Shown here in pieces: positions 3,848-54,199 of a stretch of 64,000 bases of DNA. This DNA is from Brachionus koreanus (lineage: Eukaryota > Rotifera > Eurotatoria > Ploima > Brachionidae), in NCBI GenBank assembly GCA_016987375.1, contig PJRA01000313.1, positions 3,198,361-3,262,360 of the forward strand, written 5' to 3'. The position numbers and the translations under genes are program-made. Numbering within the stretch: position 1 is the stretch's first letter; the number at the start of each line of letters is the position of its first letter. The notes under the pieces are model-generated. The model saw only the letters and a list, made by a program, of their open reading frames with translations. It ran no database searches and had not been told where the DNA came from.

Positions 3848-6800
3848 TTAAATCAAGAATCTTTTATCAACCAAAGTTTTTCTGGAGATGTTTCTTTTTC
3901 CTAGATCATTTCTTAATGTATTGTAAATCTAGTTAAAAATAAAATTTAAAGTTTTTTTAAAATTATTTCTTTTTAAAATTTACCTTAATGACTAAAAAAA
4001 CACAAAAAGCTGCAAGCACGTAATTTTTGGCAAAGTAATCAACAAACAAAAATGTAATTAAATCAAAGACGAAAAGTTTAAGCTCTTGACCACAAAACAG
4101 AACTGATTCAAAAGTTCGATTTTCGTCTTAAAAAACAAAAAATTTAGCAAATTTAACTTTCTTCCTTTTTAATAAGAATTATGATGCTTACCAGCAAAAA
4201 AATATCCATTTTTGCTAGGATCTCTAAATTCAATGTTGAAAATATTTTCGAATAAATTTCTTCTTACAATTTTGTATTTCAGGTTACGCAAAATCTTTAT
4301 TTTTTTCAAAAATCAAGAATTTTTTTAAATAAATCAAGTGCTTACATTATCAATAAAGCCCATGAGAAATTTGTTCAAATTATTATAGGCTAGAACTCGC
4401 TTGTCAAACTCAGTTCCACTTATTCCACTACTTTTTCTCAATATAGTTTTCTTTTCGAAAAATTTATGTATATATTTTTTTTTAAATAAAATAAAATTTT
4501 ACTTGAATCAAAGGAATCATAACTTTGGAATATTCATTACTTAGTTTATTAGATATAAAAATAGAAAATGTTTGCTGATCAGAATTTTGACCAAGCCCAC
4601 GCTTGCTTGTCTCTTCGTTTTCTTCCTTGGCCAATGCTTTTGACATGTATTGCATGCTTACGTCAGAATTTCCGTGCGGAGACCGCCCATGTATGTAAAA
4701 ACCAAATTGAGTATGTGTCATAATGAACATACTAATGTTAGCCACCGAACAAAAGTCAATGAATTGTCCTACTTTGTCTGAAATACACCGTATGTAGAAA
4801 AACTCATATATCACGTATTGGAGTATTCCAATTCCAATGTACATTGACGCGGCCATCGCAATTCTCAATATACCGCTGTATTCTGCCTGATACTCGTTTG
4901 GATCCGGAGTGACACTTGTGTTGCAATCAGCCGTAGTTATTGCTTCCAAATTGACCACTTTTAGAAAAAACAAAACTCCAATCAGTTGCACCAATGAATC
5001 AATTTTTCTAAATGTTTGTATCTCGTTCCATTCATTAGCCACAAACAGTGTTCTCCAACAGGATATTTTATTATATTCAGACAGCTCTTTTCTAAGTAAA
5101 TTATCTTTTTCTTCGTCTTTGTTTTTTTCCATGACAATTGATGGAGTAAGCTGATTTATCATGTCTGACTTTGGTCGTTCCCAGTCAATGAAAAATATGT
5201 CAAAAGAAGTCTGAGAGAAAACCAAATGGAGCACATCGATTAATTTAAACACAAACGCCAACACCAGCATTACTATAAACACTGTCTGTTGATTACTATT
5301 GGGAAGAATTAGATAAGCTATTCCTTGTCCTTTGTAGAATATAAGCCAGTAAATAGAGCCGACAATTAATATTAAAAAAAAAACATTGCCCAAAGAAGAA
5401 CAAATGAACATGATAAATTTAAAAAGGGTTATCAAGTCAGGTGCTAGTTTTCCTGATCTTCTATTCCAGACTAGGGCTCGAATAAATGCCCATACTAGAG
5501 AGAAAAGTCCCAATATTCCAGATGTAATCCACATTGCCAAATCAGGTGCTTGAAAATTGCTGTTATAGCCAATTTCGAAGCTTAGCTCAACTGTACGTTC
5601 CAAATTATCCGTAGAAACATAATCATAATCAATAATAATCAATGGTGGATAAATTTCTCCGTTTGTTTGAGAGTCTCTTAATCTAATATTTATCAAAAAT
5701 GATTTGACGTAACGAATGAATCGAGGAGTTTGAGATGATGATTGTTTTGAGCTTATTGATTCAACCATAAAAAATCTTCTGTGCAATTTTTGATTTCGTT
5801 CATTTTCAAAATTAACCTGAACTCCATTTTCTTTGTAGTCTAATATTTTTACAGGAATAGGCAAAAACTCCGATGAATTATCAAATTTTAGGAAAAGTTC
5901 AAAAAATTTCGGATCTTTGCCAAATTCGAGAAGAGTTGATACGGACAAAAGACAAGATTGATTGTAGTTACTGGCTGCAAAAGCAGATACTTTTGAAGCT
6001 AGCGAATATGTTGCACTTAGATAATTGCACAATTGAAATTTTGAGATATCGACAAATGAATTAGTGTGAAACGAGCCGTCCAAGTTGTACTGTCTGGCAT
6101 AAAATTGAAAACTACTCGTTTGGCACTTGTCTTCAAAGCTTAGCTTTAAAAACCTATTATTTCCAAGACCGTTATTTTCATAGTTTGAAAAATATAAAGA
6201 AAAAGATTCTGAGTAGATTAGCCATGGTATATTTTCACCAGTCAGACGGCTGAATGCTTGACATGCATCAATTGCAGTTTGAGAATATATGGTGTTCATG
6301 TTGAGAACACACATGTTGGCTAATTGCTGACAGGCAGTCACATTTCTTTTACTAGTTTCGCATTGAGCATAAGCTGAAATTAAATTGTTAGTCAAATATT
6401 CCGAAGTAACTGTTTGACTATCAAAAACAATGTTGTATATAAAGTTGCTTGGTTGAATTAATCCACCATCGTTGATCAAAATTGAGCCAGATTCAAGAAA
6501 ATTGTCATCACAATTCAGTGTGTTAATATTTGCGTCGAAAAAGGAAAATATAAATGGACGACAGCTTCTACAAGAAGAATGGTACAGCCTTGAATCCCGA
6601 GGATTGCACAAAATACATTCGTAAGAGAGTAGCTTTGTTCCGTCTAATTCGGTATCACTCAGAAAACCTCTTGAAGTGTCACAATTTCTACACAAATTAT
6701 CACAATTTACACAAGAAAAGCCATCTGATGATTGGACTTGATTAGCTGGACAAGGTTTGCATTCAATCGAGCCTCCGCCATTGTCATATGAGGCAAAATA

Positions 6801-7055
6801 ATTATTATTACATTTACAATTAAAAACTTTTTTAAAAAAATTTAGTTTAACTAATTTTTTAGAATAAAAATTTTTACCATCTTTTTTGACGCTGTTTTCA
6901 GGACATTCTTTGCATTGAGATGAGAAAATATCAAAGAATTGAGTGTTTGAAATGCAATCTGTGGGTACTGCTAAATTTACGGGCTCTAAGGAGTTCAATT
7001 GGCATGTAACAAAATTAATCAAAGCTACATTAAATATTAAGGTGTTGAAAATCAT
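3848..7055 (-). CDS. TMEM67: Meckelin, ciliary transition-zone membrane protein
   Basis: Encodes meckelin, a receptor-like protein of the ciliary transition zone (MKS complex). Proposed exons on the minus strand: 6878-7055, 4503-6826, 4346-4450, 4192-4294, 3984-4126 and 3848-3928, joining to 977 aa (human about 995). A signal peptide is followed by a Cys-rich N-terminal region, a large extracellular domain, then several membrane helices. Diagnostic strings include FFIDWERPK, FVANEWNEIQT and the C-terminal KTLVDKRFLI, which ends as in vertebrate meckelin. The 51 nt at 6827-6877 keep the frame open but have GT-AG ends and fall where a Cys-rich repeat would otherwise be interrupted, so I treat them as an intron. 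The small 3' exons were found by frame and family similarity. Confidence 0.93.
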
Positions 7056-8389
7056 TTTCGTTTTTAATATTTATTGATTTTCTAGTCAAAAATGAAATTC
7101 TAATTTTAGCAGAATTTTTTTCGAATTCTAATTCACCTTTACATTTTTCAAATGTTGTTTCCTAGCAACATTTGAATACAAGTGAGATGATTGTATCGTT
7201 ACTTGTTTTGACATGATTATTCCCCTTTTGAATTCTGATCTTTTCTAAATGATTGAATTTTGTCTTAAAATCATAATTTTTAATTTTTTGAAATTTGATA
7301 AAAAATAAAAAAAATCGAACAGAAATTAATGCAAAAAAAGTCTATAACTTTTTTTCTTTACTAATTCTCTAAATACAACAACGAGAAGCATTCAAAGTTT
7401 CATCAATAGCTAAAGTCTGATTATTGAGCGTAAATCTATGCAAAATGTAACACAGTCAATTTTGTCAATATTTAAATTATACTAAATTTGTACAGCTTGG
7501 ACCAGAATGTTCTTAATGCATCCATGCACCAAGTTATATTTACAGAACTTGCTTTTGATACATAAAAAAAGTTTTTTTTTCTTTTTAAGAAGAACATGAA
7601 CCATCCGAAAATTGAATTTTTTAAAAGGAATTATATCGCATACCCATTTAAAGCTAGTTAAAGAGCTAAACAATATTACTCAATAGTCGATTTGTGATTT
7701 AATTGAAAGCTCATACAAGTTAATAATCTAAAATACCCTAATTTAAGTCCAAAAATTCTGAAAGCTCGTAAAAAACTGCACAAGATCCTACTATTTCAGC
7801 AAGTTTCGGCTAGAAATGCAAGAAGTTATTAAAGTTTAAAAATATATTTTCGAAATTTTGAATTTATTGTTCTTTTTCTATTTTACTAAAAATTGTCTTG
7901 TTTTTTTATTTAATCAGCTCAATAAACAATTGATTAATTAATAATATAAATTATAAAATCTAGTTTTGTTTCATACCAATAATAAAATACATTTAGGGCT
8001 GCTAAAAATATTTTTGAAGAAAATTTTCAGGCGTATAAAGTTGCAATTTTTTTCAAAAGATACAAAAGTTTTTAAGCAATCAAATAAAAAAGGTACTCTT
8101 TTTGTCAATTTCACAAAATCTGAATTACTTAATTTGTTTTGAATAATTGATTCTAATTTTATTCATTTAATTTTATTAATTAAATTATTTTATTTTTTAT
8201 TATTTTTTATTTTAATTAAATAGACATAAAAATAAACCGATTTTTAACTAAAATTTATGACGATAAAATATGGTTCTATTAAAATTGTTATTCTATCAAA
8301 ATTTTTAAAAAAATTTTATCTTGATAAAAATCATTAATTTAATTCTAACCAAATTATTTATCGTTAAAATAAAAAGCTAAAAAACATTC
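7056..8389. other. Intergenic region between TMEM67 and the SelW cluster
   Basis: AT-rich with no convincing gene. The 5' flank of TMEM67 has a direct repeat of TTTGAA-containing segments near 7147-7180 that I could not interpret. The 8109-8389 part is the 3' flank of SelW copy 1 and holds its SECIS candidate. Confidence 0.5.
8109..8166 (-). promoter_or_regulatory. Weak SECIS candidate for SelW copy 1
   Basis: On the minus strand ATGA (8163-8166) is followed by a possible 8-bp helix with GU pairs, an AA ten bases after ATGA, a possible 5-bp upper stem (AATTA with TAATT), and a GAAA on the 3' side (8109-8112). This resembles a form 2 SECIS, but the lower helix is only about 4 bp. Another ATGA at 8331-8334 also sits by a hairpin but lacks the opposing GA. 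A folding search is needed to choose between them. Confidence 0.3.
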
Positions 8390-8696
8390 TTATTGACTGT
8401 CTTTGATTGCTTTAGCTACTTCCATAATAATAGCGTTTGTATCAGGAAAATTTCCTCTTCTTAGTTTACTGTAGATTAGCTTTCCATTGATAGAAACTTC
8501 AAACGATGACCGTCGGCCAACACCCCCCGAGCATTTCGCGCCAGGAGCTTCTTTAAGAATAGCTCTTTTTAGCTCTCTGAAGCGATAGCCGTAACCTCAT
8601 CCACCACTTAAAAATATTTTTTAAAATAATCTTGAAAAAAAATTTTTTTCGTATTTAAAATTACCAATATTCAATAAAAATTTCTAAATTTGCCAT
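8390..8696 (-). CDS. Selenoprotein W-like, copy 1 (C-G-G-U)
   Basis: A small thioredoxin-like redox protein of the Rdx family (SelW/SelT/SelH), in which a Cys-x-x-Sec motif performs thiol-selenol chemistry. Exon 1 is 8665-8696 and exon 2 is 8390-8606; the intron (8607-8664) splits the motif Cys codon as TG/T. The joined frame gives 82 aa with Cys11-Gly-Gly-Sec14, the Sec codon being TGA at 8597-8599. After the TGA the frame stays open for 68 codons and carries the family signature SSFEVSINGKLIYSKL. Read with the standard code the protein would stop at residue 13. It is nearest to TMEM67 and begins a tandem series of five. Confidence 0.88.
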
Positions 8697-8973
8697 ATTT
8701 TGGATGTCTGTTTTTTTTTTTTCCAAATTTTTGAATTAACTATTTTTTTACTTGTTTTTAAATATAAATTTTGGAATTAAGTCAATTTCATCATGATGGA
8801 ATATATTTAAAGTAAGTTTTTTATTACTATAGTAACTCTATAACTAAAAATAATTCTTTCCTATGCTTAAAACAATCAGTTTGTTATTAAAATTTATTTT
8901 TGAAAGGTATCTTTAAATTAGTACCAAAAAAATTTTTAAAATTTTTATCTATAAATCAAACGATAAATGTATC

Positions 8974-9044
8974 AAATAAATTCTAACATCATTTGGTTAC
9001 GGATTGAGCATTTACCTTAACCATAAATCATAATCAATTTATTT
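8974..9044 (-). promoter_or_regulatory. SECIS element candidate of SelW copy 2
   Basis: Just 3' of the copy 2 stop, the minus strand folds as a classical SECIS: a 9-bp lower helix (8974-8982 with 9036-9044), a small internal loop, the quartet ATGA (9028-9031) facing TGAT (8988-8991), a helix UGGUU/AACCA, and an unpaired AA nine bases after ATGA. A GG/CC pair in the apical part suggests form 2. This is what recruits SBP2 and eEFSec to recode UGA in animals. Judged by eye only. Confidence 0.75.
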
Positions 9045-9081
9045 TGTTGCATTTATTTTGATTTAATTTAATAAAAATTGG

Positions 9082-9382
9082 CTATTCATTTGAATTGGCA
9101 ATTTTGACTACTTCTGAAGCTATAAAATTTCTATTTGGAAATTCGCCAGTCTCTAACATACTGTAAATAAGCTTGCCATTGACTGTGACTTCAAAAGACG
9201 ACCAACGACCAACATTTCCTATGACAATAGCATCAGGTACTTCTTTGAAGATAGCTCTCTGAACTTCCCTGAAGCGGGAAGCGAAACTTCATCCTCCACT
9301 TAATAGGAAAATATATTTAAATTCAAAATAAAAAATATAGTATTGCTTACCAGTATTCAATTAATATATTAATTTTCTTCAT
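9082..9382 (-). CDS. Selenoprotein W-like, copy 2 (C-G-G-U)
   Basis: Second SelW-like gene. Exon 1 is 9351-9382 and exon 2 is 9082-9298, with the intron again inside the Cys codon. It gives 82 aa with Cys11-Gly-Gly-Sec14; the Sec TGA is at 9289-9291. The residues after Sec differ from the other copies (SFASRF instead of GY-x-x-RF), while SSFEVTVNGKLIYS is kept. The stop is TAG. The best-formed SECIS candidate of the cluster lies 40 bases downstream, which supports recoding. The function is inferred as for copy 1: a cytosolic glutathione- or thioredoxin-linked redox protein. Confidence 0.9.
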
Positions 9383-9657
9383 TTCTATTTAAGGAAAAAT
9401 TACAAGTTATAAGAATAAACTAATTAATTTTTTAAAATGCTGAATCAGTTTTTTGGGTAAATGGCGTTTTAATTCTCCTTAATCATAGTGAATTAACGAA
9501 ATAAATTAATAAACATATTTTTTGCTAATTGATTCGAAATTTTTAATTTATTTTTAAGTTGTAAGAAAACAAATTCTAATTCAATAGTTTATTTACTAAG
9601 TCTAAATAATAACAAACTAAAATTTGAAAAAAAAATTTTTACACATTTCGAAAAATA

Positions 9658-9736
9658 CAGTTAAATTTTGAAAATTTTCGTGTTGCCATGATTTTTTTAT
9701 TTTTCACAAACAACAGTCATTTTAATAAAACTACTG
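9658..9736 (-). promoter_or_regulatory. SECIS element candidate of SelW copy 3
   Basis: In the minus-strand 3' flank of copy 3, ATGAC (around 9716-9720) faces CGAA (9677-9680). The helix UGUUG/CAACA continues through GU pairs and GUGA/UCAU to an A-rich apical loop that supplies the required AA about 12 bases after ATGA. A lower helix is formed by CAGT...GTTTT with AAAAT...ACTG (outer ends 9658 and 9736). Quartet, loop A's and distances match eukaryotic SECIS elements. Confidence 0.68.
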
Positions 9737-9795
9737 TAAATTTAGATTAGAAAAATTTTTTTTTTAATTTTAGCATTTTAATTAAGTTTGAACTT

Positions 9796-10088
9796 CTATT
9801 TTCCAGCTAATTCGGCGACTTGCAAAGCTATGTCATCGAAATTCGGAAAGCTTCCCTTTTGCAGCTTGCTGTAAATCAAGTTTCCATTTACAGTCACCTC
9901 GAAAGATGCCGAACGGCCTACTGATCCTGTTATCTGCGCATTCGGAACTTGAGCTGAAATTGTCTGCTTAAGCTCGCGAAAGCGAGGTCCGTAACCTCAT
10001 GCGCCACTATTAAAAAAATTTTAAGATAATACTCTTTTTTATTAAAGTTTAATTACCAGTATTCTATATGAACAGTTATTTGAGTCAT
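9796..10088 (-). CDS. Selenoprotein W-like, copy 3 (C-G-A-U)
   Basis: Third copy. Exon 1 is 10057-10088, exon 2 is 9796-10006, and the intron splits the motif Cys codon. It gives 80 aa with Cys11-Gly-Ala-Sec14, the same CGAU motif as in vertebrate SelW; the Sec TGA is at 9997-9999. The frame after TGA includes RSASFEVTVNGNLIYSKL and ends in a TAG. Its G+C content in exon 2 is well above the flanks, a sign of coding constraint. A SECIS candidate follows at 9658-9736. Confidence 0.9.
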
Positions 10089-11734
10089 TTTTTAGTTTCC
10101 AAAATTTTTTCGATAAAAAAATTAAATATATATTAGCAAATTTTAAAAGCTTTTTATAACGCTTTTTTTCATATTAATTATGCTTGAACATAATTCTTTT
10201 TTTTATAAACTAATCAAATAACCTTGATTATATGATATGTTCTAGAAATATTTACTATGTATTTATCTCTATTTAGAACCTTTAAAATATGCTATTTTAA
10301 AAACCTAAATTTGAGTATAAGATTTTAAATAGGTTAAAAATACAATGAGGATCAAATAAAATAATTCTCCTAATCGTTATTATTTTGATTTTTGCTTTAA
10401 ATATAAATTTCTAATCAAGAAAAAATTTTGTAAAAGAAATGCCTTTTTAGGAGTATGAGTGATTAATTTTAACAATATTTTTATCACTTGAAAAATCACA
10501 TATTAATTTTAACTGTTTTTCAATAAAATTAATGAAATTTGTTAAAATTAGCAAAAAAAAGAGTTTTTGATTCTGACAAAAGCAAAAAATATCGCCAAAA
10601 TTAGTTAATCTTCAAAATATAATTCATTTTGCTCTTTACTCTCTAGACATTTATAGTGTTGATTTGACACAAGGGTTTTTACCGTTGTTTACATAGAATT
10701 ATACTAAATGTTACTAAATTTTACAATATTTTTCGAAAAAGCTGGGAAAACTAAAACGTCCAAAAAAATCAAAACTCAAGCAATTAGAATTTTTGGAAAA
10801 TTTCTAGTAGACAGAAAATTTTTTTTAAAAATAATTTTTAATCAAAAATTGGAAAAATACAGGAAGTCTGAATTAAGTCTGAATAAGAGATATTTGGGCT
10901 TTGAGGGGCCTCTGTCAAAAAGCGCAGTAGTGATATTATTTGCGAACCTTGCTTCAAAATTTTAATTATTCTAATAAAATTTAGCTTTTAAATTTTAATT
11001 ATTCTAATAAAATTTAGCTTTTAAATTTTAAATTTAAATTCTTCATAAATTCGTTTTTTTCCTTGACTTTGAAACAAATAATAAGTTTAATTTTATTTTT
11101 TTGATTTAACTTAAAACTGTGACTTATAACAAAGTCTGATTTTAATTAAAAAAAAAAAAAACATATAATAAATATAGTAATGACTTTAGATTTGAATTTT
11201 GATTATTTTATTTTGAGAATGGTCAATAAAATTTGGTCAATTTCATTTTGCACGAAATAATTATTTATATTTTTTTAAATACAAAAATGTTTAAATATTT
11301 AAAAATAAAATTGATTAATCATAAATTTATTAATCATTTTGTATATGTAAGTATAGAGGCTTAAATCATGAGTTGCATTCAGACTTATCAATTTTGAGTC
11401 TGTGTAGATTTAATGTGAGATTTATTTGTGAGTCTAAATGATTTTTGTTTAAAAAAATAAATCCAGAAATTTGTTAAAAACTACTGAAAAAAATTTTCTT
11501 TAGGTTTAAATTTCAAAAATATTAAATACTAGAATGTATGAGACTACAATTTTTGATTTGGGATGCTATAAATAAGAAATAAAAGTTACAACTGATTAAT
11601 ATATTCGATTTTAATAAAGAAAAAAATTTTATTTTAGCAGAAATAGTTTAAAAATAATAAATCAAAATAAATTCTCGACTATTTTGTATACATCATGTTA
11701 TCATTTTTTTACTTTATAAAAATAACATTCATTA
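10089..11734. other. AT-rich intergenic stretch within the SelW cluster
   Basis: No gene is supported. An 85-codon plus-strand frame at 10708-10965 has low-complexity Lys/Ile/Phe composition and no family resemblance, so I do not call it. The stretch contains a perfect 33-bp tandem duplication (10960-11025). Confidence 0.5.
10960..11025. repeat. Two perfect 33-bp tandem copies
   Basis: The unit beginning TTTTAATTATTCTAATAAAA occurs at 10960-10992 and is repeated exactly at 10993-11025. The two copies are identical, so the duplication is recent. It lies in non-coding DNA and has no visible function. Confidence 0.9.
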
Positions 11735-11779
11735 ATCAAAATAATATCACAAAATTTATATTTGATATTTTTCTATCAT
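11735..11779 (-). promoter_or_regulatory. SECIS-like candidate of SelW copy 4
   Basis: In the minus-strand 3' flank of copy 4, ATGA (11776-11779) is followed after 12 bases by AAA in an apical loop. The stem AATATC/GATATT extends with GU pairs and one A-A mismatch toward TGAT (11735-11738). The AA distance is right, but the quartet registers only with a one-base bulge and the lower helix is weak. Several other ATGA strings lie between 11690 and 11740 on the same strand. Confidence 0.42.
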
Positions 11780-11790
11780 TTCTTTTTAAT

Positions 11791-12087
11791 TTAGATTTCT
11801 TTCTGTTGATTCATCACTGCAATTTGTTCAGCTAGCTCTTCTAGATTAGGAAAGACACCTGTTTTTAATTTGCTGAAAATCAATTTTCCATTTATTTTAA
11901 TTTCAAAGGCTGATGCTCGGCCAGTAGAACCAATTACTCTCGCTTCTGGAATTTCTTTGAGAATAAGTCTCTGAAGCTCTCTGAAGCGAGGACGGTATCC
12001 TCATGAAGAACTAGAAAATATTTTAACTAGAACAAAAAAATAAATTATTATTTACCAATATTCAACGTAGATTTCTAAATAGCTCAT
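11791..12087 (-). CDS. Selenoprotein W-like, copy 4 (C-S-S-U)
   Basis: Fourth copy. Exon 1 is 12056-12087, exon 2 is 11791-12010, and the intron splits the Cys codon. It gives 83 aa with Cys11-Ser-Ser-Sec14, a change of both spacer residues; the Sec TGA is at 12001-12003. The frame continues with GYRPRFRELQ and SAFEIKINGKLIFSKL to a TAA. The middle of the protein is more diverged than in copies 1 and 3, but all core positions are kept and there is no frameshift. POLR3K lies about 320 bp upstream on the same strand. Confidence 0.88.
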
Positions 12088-12408
12088 TTCGAAAAGATAT
12101 ATTCTTTAAATTTTAAAAAATGATCAAATTTTAATTTTAAATTAAAAAAAATTCATTTAAATATCAAAAATAATAAGTTTAAAAATAGAACACGTCATAA
12201 ATAGAATTTAAGAATTCGTTCAGCCCTGGTTATTATTTGCAAAAGCTAAACAACTTAATGTTCCCTAAATTTAAATCCTCTAAAAAAAGAAAAATTAAAA
12301 TTAAATTTTTTAATGTAAATTTTTATTTTATTTTTATTTAAAATAAAAATGATATTTTAGATTTCGACAAGGAAAGATTTTTTTTTATTTTTTAAAAATT
12401 AGTGATTT

Positions 12409-12735
12409 TTATTCACGCCAACGTTTTCCACATTGAGGATTACAGCATTTGTAAAATGTTGTCATGGGTTCATCGGCCGATCTTGTCTGAATTTGCATGA
12501 AATAAGCTCTATTGTGACCACACTCCTCACAAGTAATTTCCGTTGAGTCAACATTCTCCCATGCTGCCGCTCCACCGAGCACATCATCTATTTCTTTTAG
12601 TTTACAATATTTCCTATTTGACATCTTTTCTTTTATATTGTTTATAAATGGACAAGTGTTACATGCAAATCTGTAACAGTTTGGTCCCTCTTCGACAATA
12701 AGAACATTGCCGCAATTTGGGCAAAAGTAAAGCAT
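12409..12735 (-). CDS. POLR3K: RNA polymerase III subunit RPC11/RPC10
   Basis: Encodes the small Pol III subunit that stimulates RNA cleavage and termination/reinitiation. It is 108 aa in one exon, the same length as the human protein, and about 70 percent identical as I recall it. The N-terminal zinc ribbon (FCPNCGN ... CNTC, residues 5-28) resembles RPB9. The C-terminal ribbon is TFIIS-like, with CEEC, the catalytic hairpin QTRSADEPMTTFYKC (Asp-Glu at its tip) and a final CNPQCGKRWRE. It is intronless, unlike most neighbours, and sits inside the SelW cluster on the same strand, probably by chance. Confidence 0.97.
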   Translation of the reverse strand: MLYFCPNCGNVLIVEEGPNCYRFACNTCPFINNIKEKMSNRKYCKLKEIDDVLGGAAAWENVDSTEITCEECGHNRAYFMQIQTRSADEPMTTFYKCCNPQCGKRWRE

Positions 12736-12924
12736 TCCAATTTAAGAAATATTTTTTTTGGACTTGTAATTAAAATATTTCAAAAATTTCATAATTTTGT
12801 TAATTTTTTTAAAATTTTATGGCGAAAATATTTTGTCTTGTGAAAAAGTTTTTTTCAAAATTTAAAAAATAAATATTTTGATCTCATTTATTTAAAATTA
12901 TGAAAATTTAACATTATTATTATT

Positions 12925-13010
12925 TTTATATTTTATTTATTTGAGGGAAACCCTCAGGCTACTCAGAATGGAACAAAGTCCTTCTTTTTAACCTAACGAT
13001 TATTTAAAAG
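12925..13010 (-). mobile_element. LINE 3'-UTR and tail fragment
   Basis: A G+C-richer block with a 5-bp hairpin (GAGGG-AAA-CCCTC) and a minus-strand tail of AAATAAAT units resembles the 3' end block at 2860-2910 (both contain an AAAAGAAGGA then a TTCC-x-GAG string). No coding part is recognisable, so it is a short 5'-truncated insertion at most. Confidence 0.4.
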
Positions 13011-13263
13011 GATCAAAAATTGTTTAAACTGTGTAAATCAGATTTTGAATTGTTTGTAAATTTTCATACTTTTATCCTAATCAGATCAAAAAATTATTTA
13101 TAAATTCAGGCATTTCAGGCTGTTTTATTAAGATTATATAATTGTATGATTATAGCAAAAAGATTACCCCATTTATTTGAAAAAAAATTGTGGTTAAAAA
13201 AAAGATAAAATAAAATAATAAATCACAATTAAATTTTTGCTTCAAATTAATTCTAAGTTAAAT

Positions 13264-14762
13264 TTAAATTTTTTTTTTCTCATCTTTGACAGAATTATCG
13301 GATTTAGATAATGTCAAAAAATTATCACTAAACATGCTTGGTATTGAATTTCCAAAATAAATTTTAGTATTTTTAGCTAAGGCTTCGTATTTTATCATTT
13401 CCAAATATTCAGGTGTCAATTTAGCCTAAAATCATTTAGAAATTTACCATTTATTTAATTAAATTATTAAAGAATTATACTTTATTAGCTTCAATTTCTG
13501 TCTTAACTTTATAATAGGCCGCATCTGCCATCGATTTTTCTCTATTTACTTGCATCTGAACTAATGATTGAAAATGTAAATTTAAAATTATTTGAAAGCG
13601 ACGAAAACTTACCTTCTATATCGGCAATTTTTTTGTCCGATTCTTTTTCCATAATTTTTTGCTCGTACTGAATTTTAGAAACCTGAGAAACCTTTTCAGC
13701 CTCTAAAAAAATAAAAAATTTATCAATTAAAGATAATTTAGTTACCAATTATTGCTCTTTTTCTTTCAGTTTCAGCTTCTTTTTCAACAACTTTTTGATG
13801 CTGGGCTGAAATCAAAAGTTTTGTCTTTTCAGCTTCCCTTTATAAAAAAACTATTTAATAAGTATTCAAAACAAGACATTTGGTTTAAAAAACACATTAA
13901 TTCATAATTTTTTCTTATTTGTTCTGGAATTTTAGGTTTGGTAACACGGACTGCTTGGATGAAGAGACCAGGAGCTAGAGTGGTCAAGTCGGTCTGCAAA
14001 GCATTTTTTAAGTGTTCATCAATATCGGCTTTAGAATAAATTAGGTTGAAGCCTTTCTGGTTTAAGAAAATTTGGTTTCTTACAAAAGAGATCAATGTAG
14101 ACTTCTTGAAGACTGTGCACGCTGCAAAATTGATTTAACTCGTGATGTATTTTGTTAAAAATCAAAGGCTTGTCATAGTCGGCCGTAAATTTTTTTACAG
14201 TCTCATATACTTGAGATAAAGATTAATCAGAGAACCATGTTTTAGACTAAAATAAAAAAAATACCATGATCAGGAGACAAAAAGTTTACCACTTCGATTT
14301 TGTCAAAATATATCACCACACCACCGCTAAATAAACACTTAAAAAAACTTGATAAAAAAGTTAATTTATTACCTTGTTCCACAAGGTATATTCTTGACTT
14401 CGTCTGTTTGCATAGTTGTCTGCATTAAAATTTAATTTAGATGATTAATTAATAAATTTGAAAAATTTACAAAACCTGAACAGATTTGAATGATGTAACA
14501 AAAGGGATCATTAGATGAAAACCCGGACCCGATGTCGATTTTAATAATGCACCACCCTTATTTTTGCAAAAAGTAAAAAAAATTCTTTAATAATCTTATT
14601 TACTCTGTAATAAACACCAATGTGTCCTAGAATAATAAAAGTAATTTATTTTTGTATTAAGATACTAATTAATTTACCTTCTTCTATTTTGTGAATAGAC
14701 ATGCTGACTAAAAATGCTAACACAGCTGTTGCAATGGCAATGGTACCCACAAAACTCATCAT
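13264..14762 (-). CDS. ERLIN: Erlin, ER lipid-raft SPFH/prohibitin protein
   Basis: Erlins form large ER-membrane complexes that direct IP3 receptors and sterol regulators to ERAD. Eleven minus-strand exons join to 326 aa: 14678-14762, 14604-14626, 14476-14556, 14373-14419, 14265-14326, 14084-14209, 13896-14028, 13746-13837, 13613-13702, 13481-13560 and 13264-13425. An N-terminal membrane anchor precedes the SPFH domain ([42 protein letters not shown]), then [20 protein letters not shown] and [18 protein letters not shown], followed by a charged coiled-coil. Exon 2 has only 23 nt. Two ATG codons are adjacent at the start; I used the first. It could be erlin-1 or erlin-2, as invertebrates usually have one gene. 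Confidence 0.94.
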
Positions 14763-15315
14763 CTAATTTAATCTATTATTTAATCTTTAATTCAAAGCAC
14801 TTAAATCATAGATATTTAAGAGAAATAAAGAATAGGTAGAAATTCGAATGTATCAAACTATCTGAAGCATTTATTTCATGCACTAAATTTTCTCCAAAAA
14901 AAAAAGAAAAAAAAATTATTGAAAATTAAACAAATTTTGCATTTACTATGAAAAATTAGTTAAAATTATGCTGATACTAATTTACCAAAGAGAATATATT
15001 AAAATGTATGTCCATGGACAAAAATTTCTTCAAAGTACTTAATATTTTTAGCGTTTCAGTTGGTTAAACTTGGTGATTCAATTATTTCATTTAATAAAAA
15101 TTTTCTATTATTGAAGAAAATTAATTTATTTCGATTTTTTAATTTATCCATGGTAACTTATTAGATGAAATTTGTTTAAAATCATTTTCTTAGAGCAATT
15201 ACACTCTACGTAGAAAGAATTAGAAAAATGATAAAATTTTTAATTGTTTTATTTAAAGAAAATGATAAAAATGTATTGACTAATTTTTCTAAAAATCAAG
15301 AATTTTTCTAATAAA
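14763..15315. other. Intergenic region upstream of erlin
   Basis: AT-rich and unstructured, without a supported gene. It should contain the erlin promoter, but I see no recognisable element. Confidence 0.5.
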
Positions 15316-15411
15316 AAATTTGAATATTTAGAGACCAAAGTCTGAGTCATATTATGGCCAATTTTTTCAAATTTTTAGCCATATTAATCATAGATTAAAT
15401 AGTTCAAATTT
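15316..15411 (-). promoter_or_regulatory. SECIS element candidate of SelW copy 5
   Basis: The strongest hairpin of the series. On the minus strand a long lower helix pairs 15396-15411 with 15316-15330 (AAATTTGAA with TTCAAATTT and TATTTA with TAAATA). The quartet ATGA (15388-15391) faces TGAC (15346-15349). The upper helix AATATGGC/GCCATAATA has one A-A mismatch, and AA lies 11 bases after ATGA. The 3' side of the internal loop carries its own small AGAC/GTCT hairpin, which is unusual. Confidence 0.78.
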
Positions 15412-15457
15412 AGTTATTAAAAATTTCTAGATTTTTAAGTGAAAATAGAATAAATAA

Positions 15458-15813
15458 TTATGATATGACACACTGGCTTGATTGAACCTCAGTGACTTCA
15501 CTGACTTCAACACCTTTAGATGCCTTGATCACCTCTTCGACAATTTTATCGTAGACAGGAAATCCACTTTTGGCCAATTTGCTGAAGACTAGCTTGCCAT
15601 TGATTGTCACTTCGAAGGACGATCGACGGCCAACACGGCCTTCAACTCTCGCATTAGAAACCTCTTGTATTATTTCATACTGGAGCTGTCTAAAGCGAGA
15701 TGAATAACCTCATGCGCCGCTAAAATTTAAAATTGCTTTAAAAAAAAACAGAATAATCTCAAAATAATTTCTTACCAATATTCAATTTCAACTTGAATTG
15801 GATTAGTGCTCAT
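15458..15813 (-). CDS. Selenoprotein W-like, copy 5, extended C-terminus (C-G-A-U)
   Basis: Fifth copy, separated from copies 1-4 by POLR3K and erlin. Exon 1 is 15776-15813 and exon 2 is 15458-15719; the intron splits the Cys codon (TG/C). It gives 99 aa with Cys13-Gly-Ala-Sec16; the Sec TGA is at 15710-15712. The family core RRSSFEVTINGKLVFSKL is intact. Both ends are longer than in the other copies: two extra residues at the start and a Glu/Val/Ser-rich tail ending in SSQCVIS, with an extra Cys. It is divergently transcribed from CEP83, with 350 bp between the start codons, and is followed by the best SECIS candidate. Confidence 0.9.
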
Positions 15814-33720: not shown

Positions 33721-34635
33721 GGATTGTGCAATAGTAGAATGTTTTAAGAGGCGAATCTTTTTATGATTTTAGTCAAGCCGAGATTTAATTGGTTATAAGC
33801 TAATTGAGCGACATGAATAATTAAGAGCAAGCTTGAGCCAATGAAATAGAAGCGAAATTCAAGCTGAATGAATGAAGTACTTTAGCAAGGCCATAAGCCA
33901 ATCATATATTTTCTAAATTTTAGGCTTGTTGTGTGCCTATGCGGTTAATAGTTACTTTAATTGGATGCTGACAACAGTCCAGCCCAATAATTCAATTCTC
34001 CATTCAATAAATAAACACAGAAACATTTTTCGATTCCAGTGTATTTACCTTAGAATAATTTTCAAACAAAGAGCATAATTTTTCTTATTTCTTTAGATTT
34101 TTATCTTTAGGGAAAATTAGATAGAAACAAAATAGCAATATTTTTTCCAAAGTGTTGATTTTTTTTTGTTGATGGAATAGTAAAATTTTAAAATTTTAAT
34201 AAAACGTAGTTTTGACTTGAAAGCTAAAAGCTAGCTAAAATTAAATCATCACTATGCATGATGAAAAGTCACTTAATTCGTATGCTGAGCTCGAGCCCGT
34301 TGACTTAGTTCTCTATCACAGTTTAAAATAGAAAAAAAAATAAAAAAGAAAAGCGCTCATTCTTATAAAACACCAAGACCCAAGAATTTAAAATAAAAAA
34401 AGACTAGAATCTAAATTTAGAAGCATCAATTTTCGATCAGCATTAACTCTATTAATTATACTAGCAAACGATTTTAAATTTATTTTTTTTTTTTTCTCTT
34501 TGTTTCTCAATTTATTTTACATTCTTTTTATTTTTTTTTTGAATAATTAAAAAAAAAATTATTTTATTTTTACTTTAAGCTTGTTGAAAATAAAATCTAT
34601 TGAATTGTTTGACAAATATAATAACGTAAAAAATA

Positions 34636-36471
34636 ATGGTTAGCAATTTGGTCGCAATGTTCGGCGGAGGAGGCAATCAAGTGTCAATGAACGGTAGCCA
34701 GGTAACCCCCAACGACATGGAACAACAGAGTTCACTAATGGGTCAAATGATGCTCCAGAATTACTCGCAGACACAAAATTTTGCAGCTCAGCCGACCTAC
34801 GGACAGGCTCACTTCAATCATCACCTAGTAGGCCATCATTTTCATCATGCCCAGCATCAACAGCAACAGCATCAGCAACAGTATCTGCTACAGCAGTACG
34901 GTGGCGATGCGCACTATCAGACAGCGGACACGATCGCAGCTCATGCTAAACACGACGACGAGGAAGATGATGAAATGCACGAAGAAGATGAGGAAGAAGA
35001 CGAGGAGAACGAGCACGTTGAGGGCGAAATTTCTTCGTCCTCTCCGTCGCCCAACGACTCGTCGATCGGCAGTGGTGGCAATGGATCGAGTCGATCTCAA
35101 TTGGTTCACCGAAATTCGGCCAAGTCAATGTCGAGTGCTGAGCTCGAGCGTGTCAAAAGACCCATGAACGCTTTCATGGTCTGGTCGAGGAGCAAGCGAC
35201 GACAAATGGCTCAGGAAAATCCAAAAATGCACAATTCAGAAATAAGCAAGCGCTTGGGTGCCGAATGGAAAATGCTCAACGAGGACGAAAAACGTCCGTA
35301 TATTGACGAAGCCAAACGCCTCAGGGCTGTGCATATGAAAGAACATCCAGATTATAAATACAGACCTAGGAGAAAAAACAAATCCATAATGAAAAAAGAA
35401 AAAATTGGTTCATTATCAAATGGTGTGACCAATGGTCCCAATGGTCAAATAAACCATCACGGTCTACACCATCATTTGGTCATGAATTCGCATCCAAATA
35501 ATCAATTTAACGCAAATCATCACTACTTGCAGCAACAAGGGGTCTCTCCGGCCCATTTGGTACACCATTCGGCTCATTCGATTTCTCAGCATGGACATCA
35601 TCCAAATTCAGTTGCATCGCATGGCTTTTCGCAACAATTTCAGCACAATCAAGCCTATTCGAATCAAACACCGCACATGCTAAATCCACAACATCATTTG
35701 CATCATCATTCGGCCTATCAAAATGTCGCATGGCCATCGGAGTCAAGTTTACACGAGCCTGGCTATGTAGCCACTGTTCATGTTCAGCATCAACAACAAC
35801 AACAACAACAGCAACAGCAACAGCAGCAGCAGCAGCAACAACATGCCAATTATCATCAATTAAATCAGCCAAAAACGCCGACTAGTCTTCAAACAACGCC
35901 AAATTCAAGCAATAGCCAAGTGATGTACAATCAATTGTATGCAAACAAGACTCAATCAAGCACACCAGTTCATCAGAATTCACAATACTTAATGTCGAAT
36001 AATCTGCAAAATTTGGGCTATTATTCAAACCAACTGACACCACCACCCTCAATAAAACAAGAGTCGACCTCTTCGTCATCGTCGTCGAGTAGCTCAAACA
36101 ATTCAGCAAACAGCTTAACCAACAGTCCTCAGCATCAAAGAAGCTCACGCAATCCAAGCACATCACCCATGTTCTACGCTACACAAAATCAGCAAAACGA
36201 GTATATGTACGCACATGGTCAGCATTTAACTGCTCAACAAGCTTCATCTCCACCACTTAATACCGATCAAAATTTAACATCGCTTTTGCATCATCCGTAT
36301 CACATAATAGCAGCGGCTGCTGCTGTTCAGCAAAGTTTAACGCAGAGTTTGTCGCAGCCATCGTTATTAGGCACTCGAAACGACTCATCGCCGCCTAATT
36401 CGGACATGACTCGAACATCGAACTCACCGCAAACTAATAACCAAACAACGCCTGCTGTTGTTTCAGCATAA
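34636..36471 (+). CDS. SoxB: SoxB-group HMG-box transcription factor
   Basis: Encodes a 611-aa nuclear transcription factor in a single exon, as usual for SoxB genes. The HMG box spans about residues 172-250 ([45 protein letters not shown]) and ends with the basic [10 protein letters not shown] found in SoxB1 (Sox1/2/3). The box has SK where vertebrate SoxB1 proteins have GQ after WSR. Flanks are of low complexity: His/Gln-rich N-terminus, an acidic Glu/Asp block at about 106-130, a 17-residue poly-Gln (386-402) and Ser/Pro/Asn-rich activation-like regions. SoxB1 proteins maintain neural and stem-like states. I cannot separate SoxB1 from SoxB2 with certainty. The codons are much richer in G+C than in other genes here. 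Confidence 0.93.
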
Positions 36472-53790: not shown

Positions 53791-54199
53791 TTTGAAGAAA
53801 TACTGTTTAAATTATCTGAAATGTCTAAAAATTTTTATTTATTTATTCAATATTTAAAAACAAAAATAGATCTTGTAGATGCACTTCCTAAACAGCTTGA
53901 AATTTGTATTGAGTGTGTTTGAAAGAGTTCTTCTGTTATAATAAGACTTAGCCAAAAGCCAATCAAAATTCCTTTGAATTATTTAATTATAGAAAATCAC
54001 TTATAAATCAATACAATTGAGCTTTGAAAGAAGCTAGATAAAAATAGTGTTTTTTTTTTTTTTTTAAAAATATTTTAAATTTACCAAAAATTACGTAATT
54101 AATTATTTCCAATATTTAATTCTATTATATATCTTTAAACGGTTTAAAGATATATTAATTGATTAAAAATTTTTCATCCTTAAAAAATCATGCGTGAAT

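Follow-up and report, generated by a model that had tools for sequence, protein, structure and literature searches.

We analysed 64,000 nucleotides of the Brachionus koreanus genome (GenBank assembly GCA_016987375.1, contig PJRA01000313.1, positions 3,198,361 to 3,262,360, forward strand), here called the window, in which five small genes with an in-frame TGA codon lie within 7.4 kb (window positions 8390-15813). An initial annotation of this DNA, made from the sequence alone, had described them as five minus-strand, two-exon genes of the selenoprotein W (SelW) type, a local expansion of a selenoprotein family. All five were rebuilt from the DNA as two exons each where that annotation had put them. 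The copies were lettered A to E in minus-strand order, and the features are given below with U for selenocysteine (Sec).

Copy A: exons 15813-15776 and 15719-15458 (span 15458..15813), minus strand, 99 residues, CGAU, C-terminal CVIS (CAAX box)
Copy B: exons 12087-12056 and 12010-11791 (span 11791..12087), minus strand, 83 residues, CSSU, CAAX box absent
Copy C: exons 10088-10057 and 10006-9796 (span 9796..10088), minus strand, 80 residues, CGAU, CAAX box absent
Copy D: exons 9382-9351 and 9298-9082 (span 9082..9382), minus strand, 82 residues, CGGU, CAAX box absent
Copy E: exons 8696-8665 and 8606-8390 (span 8390..8696), minus strand, 82 residues, CGGU, CAAX box absent

Gene structure, family placement and age of the five copies

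The introns of A to E were 45-58 bases long with GT..AG borders, and in all five genes the intron split the Cys codon of a CxxU redox motif near the N-terminus. As the initial annotation had stated, the TGA fell at the same site in every copy; it formed a single alignment column, though it is codon 16 in A and codon 14 in B to E. The frames downstream of the TGA were open, as claimed, for 66-83 codons and not for 64-83. With 8.5% stop codons expected from the mean base composition of the window, the chance of each open stretch was approximately 0.0007-0.0035, taking 83 codons in A and 64-67 in B to E (two short of the actual number for B to E). The FEV signature described earlier was also present, but it was located mid-protein rather than at the end, and it read FEIKINGKL in B and FEVTVNGNL in C.

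All five copies scored 54.5-71 bits against the Pfam family Rdx (PF10262, cut-off 22.6 bits) and passed the cut-off of NCBIfam TIGR02174 (SelT/SelW/SelH). Among solved structures, human MIEN1 (C17orf37, 2ljk) ranked above SelW (2npb) for each of them. The E values for MIEN1 and SelW were 7e-16 vs 2e-5 for A, 3e-13 vs 5e-5 for B, 1e-12 vs 2e-7 for C and 9e-13 vs 2e-8 for E, and D matched MIEN1 at 1e-10 with no SelW match at E 0.001. Since MIEN1 outranked SelW in all five cases, the cluster was assigned to the SelW2/MIEN1 branch in its Sec form, and the SelW identity first proposed was replaced by the MIEN1/Rdx12 (SelW2) type. By similarity, copies B to E are placed as paralogues of the SelW2/MIEN1 branch and not as MIEN1 proper. 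A protein tree of 22 rows supported the pairing of D with P0012, of P0005 with P0006 and of A with the homologues P0003 and P0004, and few other groups; the SelW2/MIEN1 branch was not separated out in this tree and five terminal branches were long.

The alignment of copy A with MIEN1 reached within one residue of the end, and A finished with CVIS. Human MIEN1 ends with CVIL and is geranylgeranylated there (PMC6738349). Copies B to E ended shortly past the Rdx domain, and none of the four had a CAAX box.

The amino acid identity among A to E was 45-55%. In the part after the TGA, the proportion of synonymous differences (pS, 0.57-0.82) exceeded that of nonsynonymous differences (pN, 0.29-0.38) in all ten pairs, third codon positions were likewise the most variable in 10 of 10, and synonymous change among the copies was near or at saturation. 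The copies are old and under purifying selection downstream of the TGA. A genome-wide search for Rdx genes (83.26 Mb, 92 contigs) gave eight matches, of which five were those of the cluster and three were on a contig designated C27. No Rdx member outside these two places was found in the genome by this search, which was carried out exon by exon and may miss some.

SECIS-like hairpins and genes for selenocysteine incorporation

Hairpins resembling the selenocysteine insertion sequence (SECIS) were sought with a scanner using the pattern ATGA - helix - AA - helix - NGAN. One was found downstream of each of the five genes:

15346..15391, minus strand, SECIS-like hairpin of A, -8.6 kcal/mol, ATGA...AA...TGAC, 66 bases past the stop
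11692..11732, minus strand, weak SECIS-like hairpin of B, -2.8 kcal/mol
9677..9720, minus strand, SECIS-like hairpin of C, -5.9 kcal/mol
8988..9031, minus strand, SECIS-like hairpin of D, -5.2 kcal/mol
8110..8166, minus strand, weak SECIS-like hairpin of E, -2.7 kcal/mol, 223 bases past the stop

When dinucleotide shuffles of up to 600 downstream bases (414 for C, 386 for D) were scanned, none of 400 was as good as the hairpin of A, and the fractions as good for B, C, D and E were 0.050, 0.005, 0.010 and 0.065, respectively. With 250 bases the corresponding fractions for A to E were 0, 0.043, 0.002, 0.015 and 0.018. The combined p for the longer stretches was 4.5e-6, assuming independence of the five. 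Five background stretches were drawn 200,000 times, and in no draw did they equal the five hairpins rank by rank; of 2174 overlapping 600-base background stretches, 8.6% reached -2.7 kcal/mol, 3.1% reached -5.2 kcal/mol and 1.0% reached -8.6 kcal/mol. An earlier scanner with a different score gave best candidates for A and B starting at the same bases, and with it the reported hairpin of E was tied with another candidate. A second hairpin after B, starting at 11779, failed the rules of the scanner, and looser quartets downstream of E in the window gave nothing better than the hairpin reported.

The genome was also searched for the genes that decode Sec. A tRNA-Sec was the only one of 26 matches to exceed the gathering score (76.6 bits), with the loop CUUCAAA and the anticodon UCA; ARAGORN did not report it. 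SepSecS gave four matches on one contig, the best at 225.5 bits (cut-off 224.85), two of which crossed a TAA or TAG taken for introns. SPS2 (L033, G000:C13:1162949-1163914) scored 256 bits and had an in-frame UGA at KG-U-GCKVPQ, which we take to be its known Sec site. For eEFSec, a 240-residue piece of one locus (L025, G000:C36:688966-690015) had human eEFSec (5izk) as its best PDB match at 3.9e-86. A second, diverged copy (L026, G000:C10:698719-699426) was 85% and 80% identical to it in two long frames and 78% at the DNA level, and from this divergence the two are likely eEFSec paralogues rather than alleles. L024, the top selB match, proved to be EF-Tu-like and was dropped as eEFSec. Two eEFSec genes accompany the enlarged Sec protein family of this genome.

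The initial annotation had held that a lack of SECIS elements on folding, or a genome without SBP2, eEFSec and tRNA-Sec, would speak against its proposal. Candidate hairpins were found for A, C and D, those of B and E being weak and near chance, and of the three genes named only SBP2 was not found. The local expansion itself was borne out, as an Rdx-family array in a genome that also has genes for Sec decoding, each copy being followed by a SECIS-like hairpin.

The probable second haplotype, the homologues and the neighbouring genes

Contig C27 was collinear with the window in nine blocks of more than 400 bases, which were 87.4-96.2% identical with gaps between them, and on this collinearity we read it as the other haplotype of the window. 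It carried C, D and E; the stretch expected to hold A and B reads N. The haplotypes differed at 9 of 741 coding bases (C 2/243, D 1/249, E 6/249) compared to 90 of 1600 non-coding bases (8/159 in introns and 82/1441 in other sequence; Fisher p 1e-7). The hairpins of C and D, counted apart, differed at 2 of 88 bases: a 44-base segment identical to the C hairpin was present on C27, and the D hairpin was also found there at -6.3 kcal/mol. In copy E, 4 of the 6 coding differences changed residues, including R43P, and its coding change was still lower than the flanking change (p 0.03). On the 3' side of E (window about 7940-8166), C27 lacked roughly 150 bases; this loss took away 25 of the hairpin's 57 bases, mainly of the 3' arm. 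No replacement hairpin for E was found on C27, where looser quartets gave no good hairpin either. With four residue changes and a damaged hairpin, one of the two haplotypes seems to carry a declining copy E.

The closest named proteins to A, C and D were from Brachionus plicatilis, in gene models named MIEN1. Copy A was 90% identical to its counterpart over the aligned part (72 of 99 columns, a 19-residue gap included), copy C at 56 of 67 residues, and copy D at 72 of 82 columns including a 4-residue gap. The models differed from the rotifer copies described here as follows:

P0003, B. plicatilis counterpart of A: 19 residues around the UGA missing
P0001, B. plicatilis counterpart of C: unrelated start fused to the post-UGA part
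P0012, B. plicatilis counterpart of D: four residues GGUS missing

As these models avoid the UGA, annotation garbles such genes rather than omits them, and the expectation that standard annotation would report none of the copies was not upheld, since A-, C- and D-like models exist that skirt the UGA. The protein searches, which were limited to close relatives, yielded no counterpart of B or E among the B. plicatilis models. P0001 and P0012 were both assigned to one B. plicatilis contig of 14921 bases, so C and D probably lie together in that species too, and their duplication would predate the split of the two species.

At the expected Sec position, 8 of the 19 homologues examined (from 24 listed) had W, namely P0002, P0005-P0008, P0011, P0013 and P0019, all with ENA or JGI as their source. 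This W is probably a UGA that gene callers translated as Trp. CAAX-like C-termini were present in 11 of the same 19 homologues and in 5 of the 8 with W, and the A-like B. plicatilis model P0003 likewise ended with CVIS. The occurrence of CAAX-like ends together with W at the Sec position suggests that Sec-containing MIEN1 proteins with a CAAX tail are not restricted to this animal. A literature search on SelW2 together with CAAX found no paper.

The array is interrupted, as two genes separate A from B: a POLR3K-like gene (Zn_ribbon_TFIIS) at window 12412-12735 and an erlin-like gene (Band_7) at window about 13260-14760, both on the minus strand. Elsewhere in the window, a meckelin (TMEM67) gene whose open frame is very long was located at 4482-7070 on the minus strand, and an HMG-box protein with long Gln and His runs, which we assume to be of the Sox type, was encoded at 34630-36471 on the plus strand.

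Interpretation and comparison with known systems

We read the cluster, with a probability of roughly 0.88, as a tandem array of five Sec-containing MIEN1/Rdx12 (SelW2) paralogues in a rotifer, directed by SECIS elements, with A held at the membrane and B to E soluble. The five small redox proteins very probably contain selenocysteine. Each mRNA would be spliced inside the Cys codon of CxxU, and the in-frame UGA would then be decoded as Sec by eEFSec and tRNA-Sec under the direction of a SECIS hairpin in the gene's own 3' untranslated region. The predicted product is a small thioredoxin-like redox protein with the active pair Cys-x-x-Sec. Judging by the CAAX box, copy A, which keeps this tail of MIEN1, is probably prenylated and membrane-bound, and copies B to E, ending just past the Rdx domain, are probably soluble; a membrane/soluble division of labour among the copies is plausible. 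Within a branch that the protein tree does not separate out, copy A looks like the ancestral form. On one haplotype, copy E appears to be losing Sec function.

Several observations weigh against this interpretation. The hairpins of B and E were near chance, being equalled by 0.05 and 0.065 of the shuffles. Across the whole window the scanner returned 72 minus-strand and 67 plus-strand candidates; the top candidate of each strand was not among the five, and the best on the minus strand (-9.1) was located elsewhere, at 54177. Candidates had already been spotted visually when the scanner was devised, so that its P values cannot count as blind. An Rfam search of the cluster gave no SECIS at E up to 10. 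In the Sec machinery, PSTK was weak, with one match of 69.4 bits against a cut-off of 382, and SBP2 was not found by searches with a human piece and with the L7Ae family, both of them insensitive.

Some of these results are qualified by controls from the same genome. Rfam likewise found no SECIS at SPS2, and the blank result for the cluster was not taken as SECIS absence. The hairpin near the SPS2 stop was weak by the same scanner (0.0 kcal/mol), and since SPS2 is expected to need a SECIS, a weak score is compatible with function in this AT-rich genome. The SECIS elements of this genome may be unusually weak; equally, the scanner may be a poor judge in it. The L7Ae search gave eight matches, the same set twice, which from their open frames we take to be ribosomal proteins and one RPP38-like frame. 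NHP2 and SNU13 were also absent from them, indicating a search too insensitive to show the absence of SBP2.

The main competitor, unlikely in our view but worth serious consideration, is that only A, C and D work as selenoprotein genes and that effective SECIS elements are gone or disappearing in B and E, which would yield truncated 13-residue peptides or unstable mRNA. The hairpins of B and E were weak, E on C27 combined its hairpin loss with four amino acid changes, and members without SECIS are known in other invertebrate clusters (PMC3473315). However, B and E have retained full frames, the intron and the UGA column since an ancient duplication (pS 0.57 vs pN 0.36 between them), and the coding sequence of E has changed less than its flanks. 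The original view that all copies are probably translated with Sec has good support in the case of A, C and D but less in that of B and E, the hairpin of E being partly missing on C27.

That the UGA is decoded as another residue, Trp or a near-cognate readthrough product, is very improbable. The W in 8 of 19 homologues would fit it, but tRNA-Sec, SepSecS, eEFSec and an SPS2 with UGA at what we take to be the Sec site are all present in the genome, and the 450-residue EF-Tu-like host frame of L024 was free of in-frame TGA. Moreover, SelW, SelW2 and SelV proteins carry CxxU as their motif (PMC3316567). A genuine stop, with the copies as pseudogenes or expressed only as their downstream part, would agree with the B. 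plicatilis models that start past the UGA or splice around it, but it is hardly credible when all five copies have retained exon 1 together with the split Cys codon and the frame downstream, and the coding bases of C, D and E have diverged approximately five times less than their surroundings between haplotypes.

Returning to the five-member Sec array, a bolder version of its history can be proposed tentatively, as one that is rather doubtful: in rotifers, one prenylated Sec-MIEN1 would have become an ancient Sec family of five, with four members released from the membrane, none drifting to Cys and one polymorphic for its SECIS. If this were true, the same gene in one diploid animal would be a selenoprotein gene on only one of its two chromosomes. 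The cluster would offer a natural series for asking why Sec is retained, with five diverged copies that all have UGA and one allele that seemingly is losing its SECIS. The homologues suggest a Sec-MIEN1 with CAAX tail in several other organisms, the Cys form of tetrapods being one outcome, and they provide a concrete example of gene models spoiled around UGA in a MIEN1-like family.

In the open-licence literature searched, five tandem SelW2/MIEN1 copies or a split by CAAX tail were not met, and titles and abstract starts revealed no study of rotifer SelW, SelW2 or MIEN1. Two apparent rotifer-related matches were discarded: in PMC3253786 the matched text merely reads 'selenoprotein was', and the matched text of PMC4661974 concerns mammals.

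Among the known systems, mammalian MIEN1/Rdx12 (C17orf37) is the closest solved structure for all five copies, and copy A aligned with it through the domain and the tail, with CVIS as its CAAX box compared to CVIL in human. It differs in having Cys where the rotifer copies have the Sec codon (PMC3316567), and the rotifer has five copies, of which B to E are without a CAAX box. SelW2 is a Sec protein of fish and frog whose relative Rdx12 is the Cys form in tetrapods; the zebrafish genes SelW2a and SelW2b stand in tandem on chromosome 3 (PMC3316567); in contrast, the rotifer cluster has five copies that are about half identical to each other. SelW1 shares the Rdx family and the CxxU motif with the rotifer copies, but it was a poorer match than MIEN1 for each of them, with none at E 0.001 for D. 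The planarian Schmidtea mediterranea, a free-living flatworm, has six SelW genes, three SelW1 and three SelW2 (PMC3828610); there the two types are mixed and the word 'tandem' is absent from the main text of that paper, whereas the five rotifer genes all match the SelW2/MIEN1 branch. Tandem selenoprotein paralogues occur in other invertebrates, such as six deiodinase genes in Trichoplax, some without SECIS, but these are of another family, and the SelW count was 1-3 in the six species tabulated (PMC3473315). Expanded SelW sets and tandem selenoprotein clusters are therefore already known, and the rotifer case genuinely expands a selenoprotein family that had been described before.

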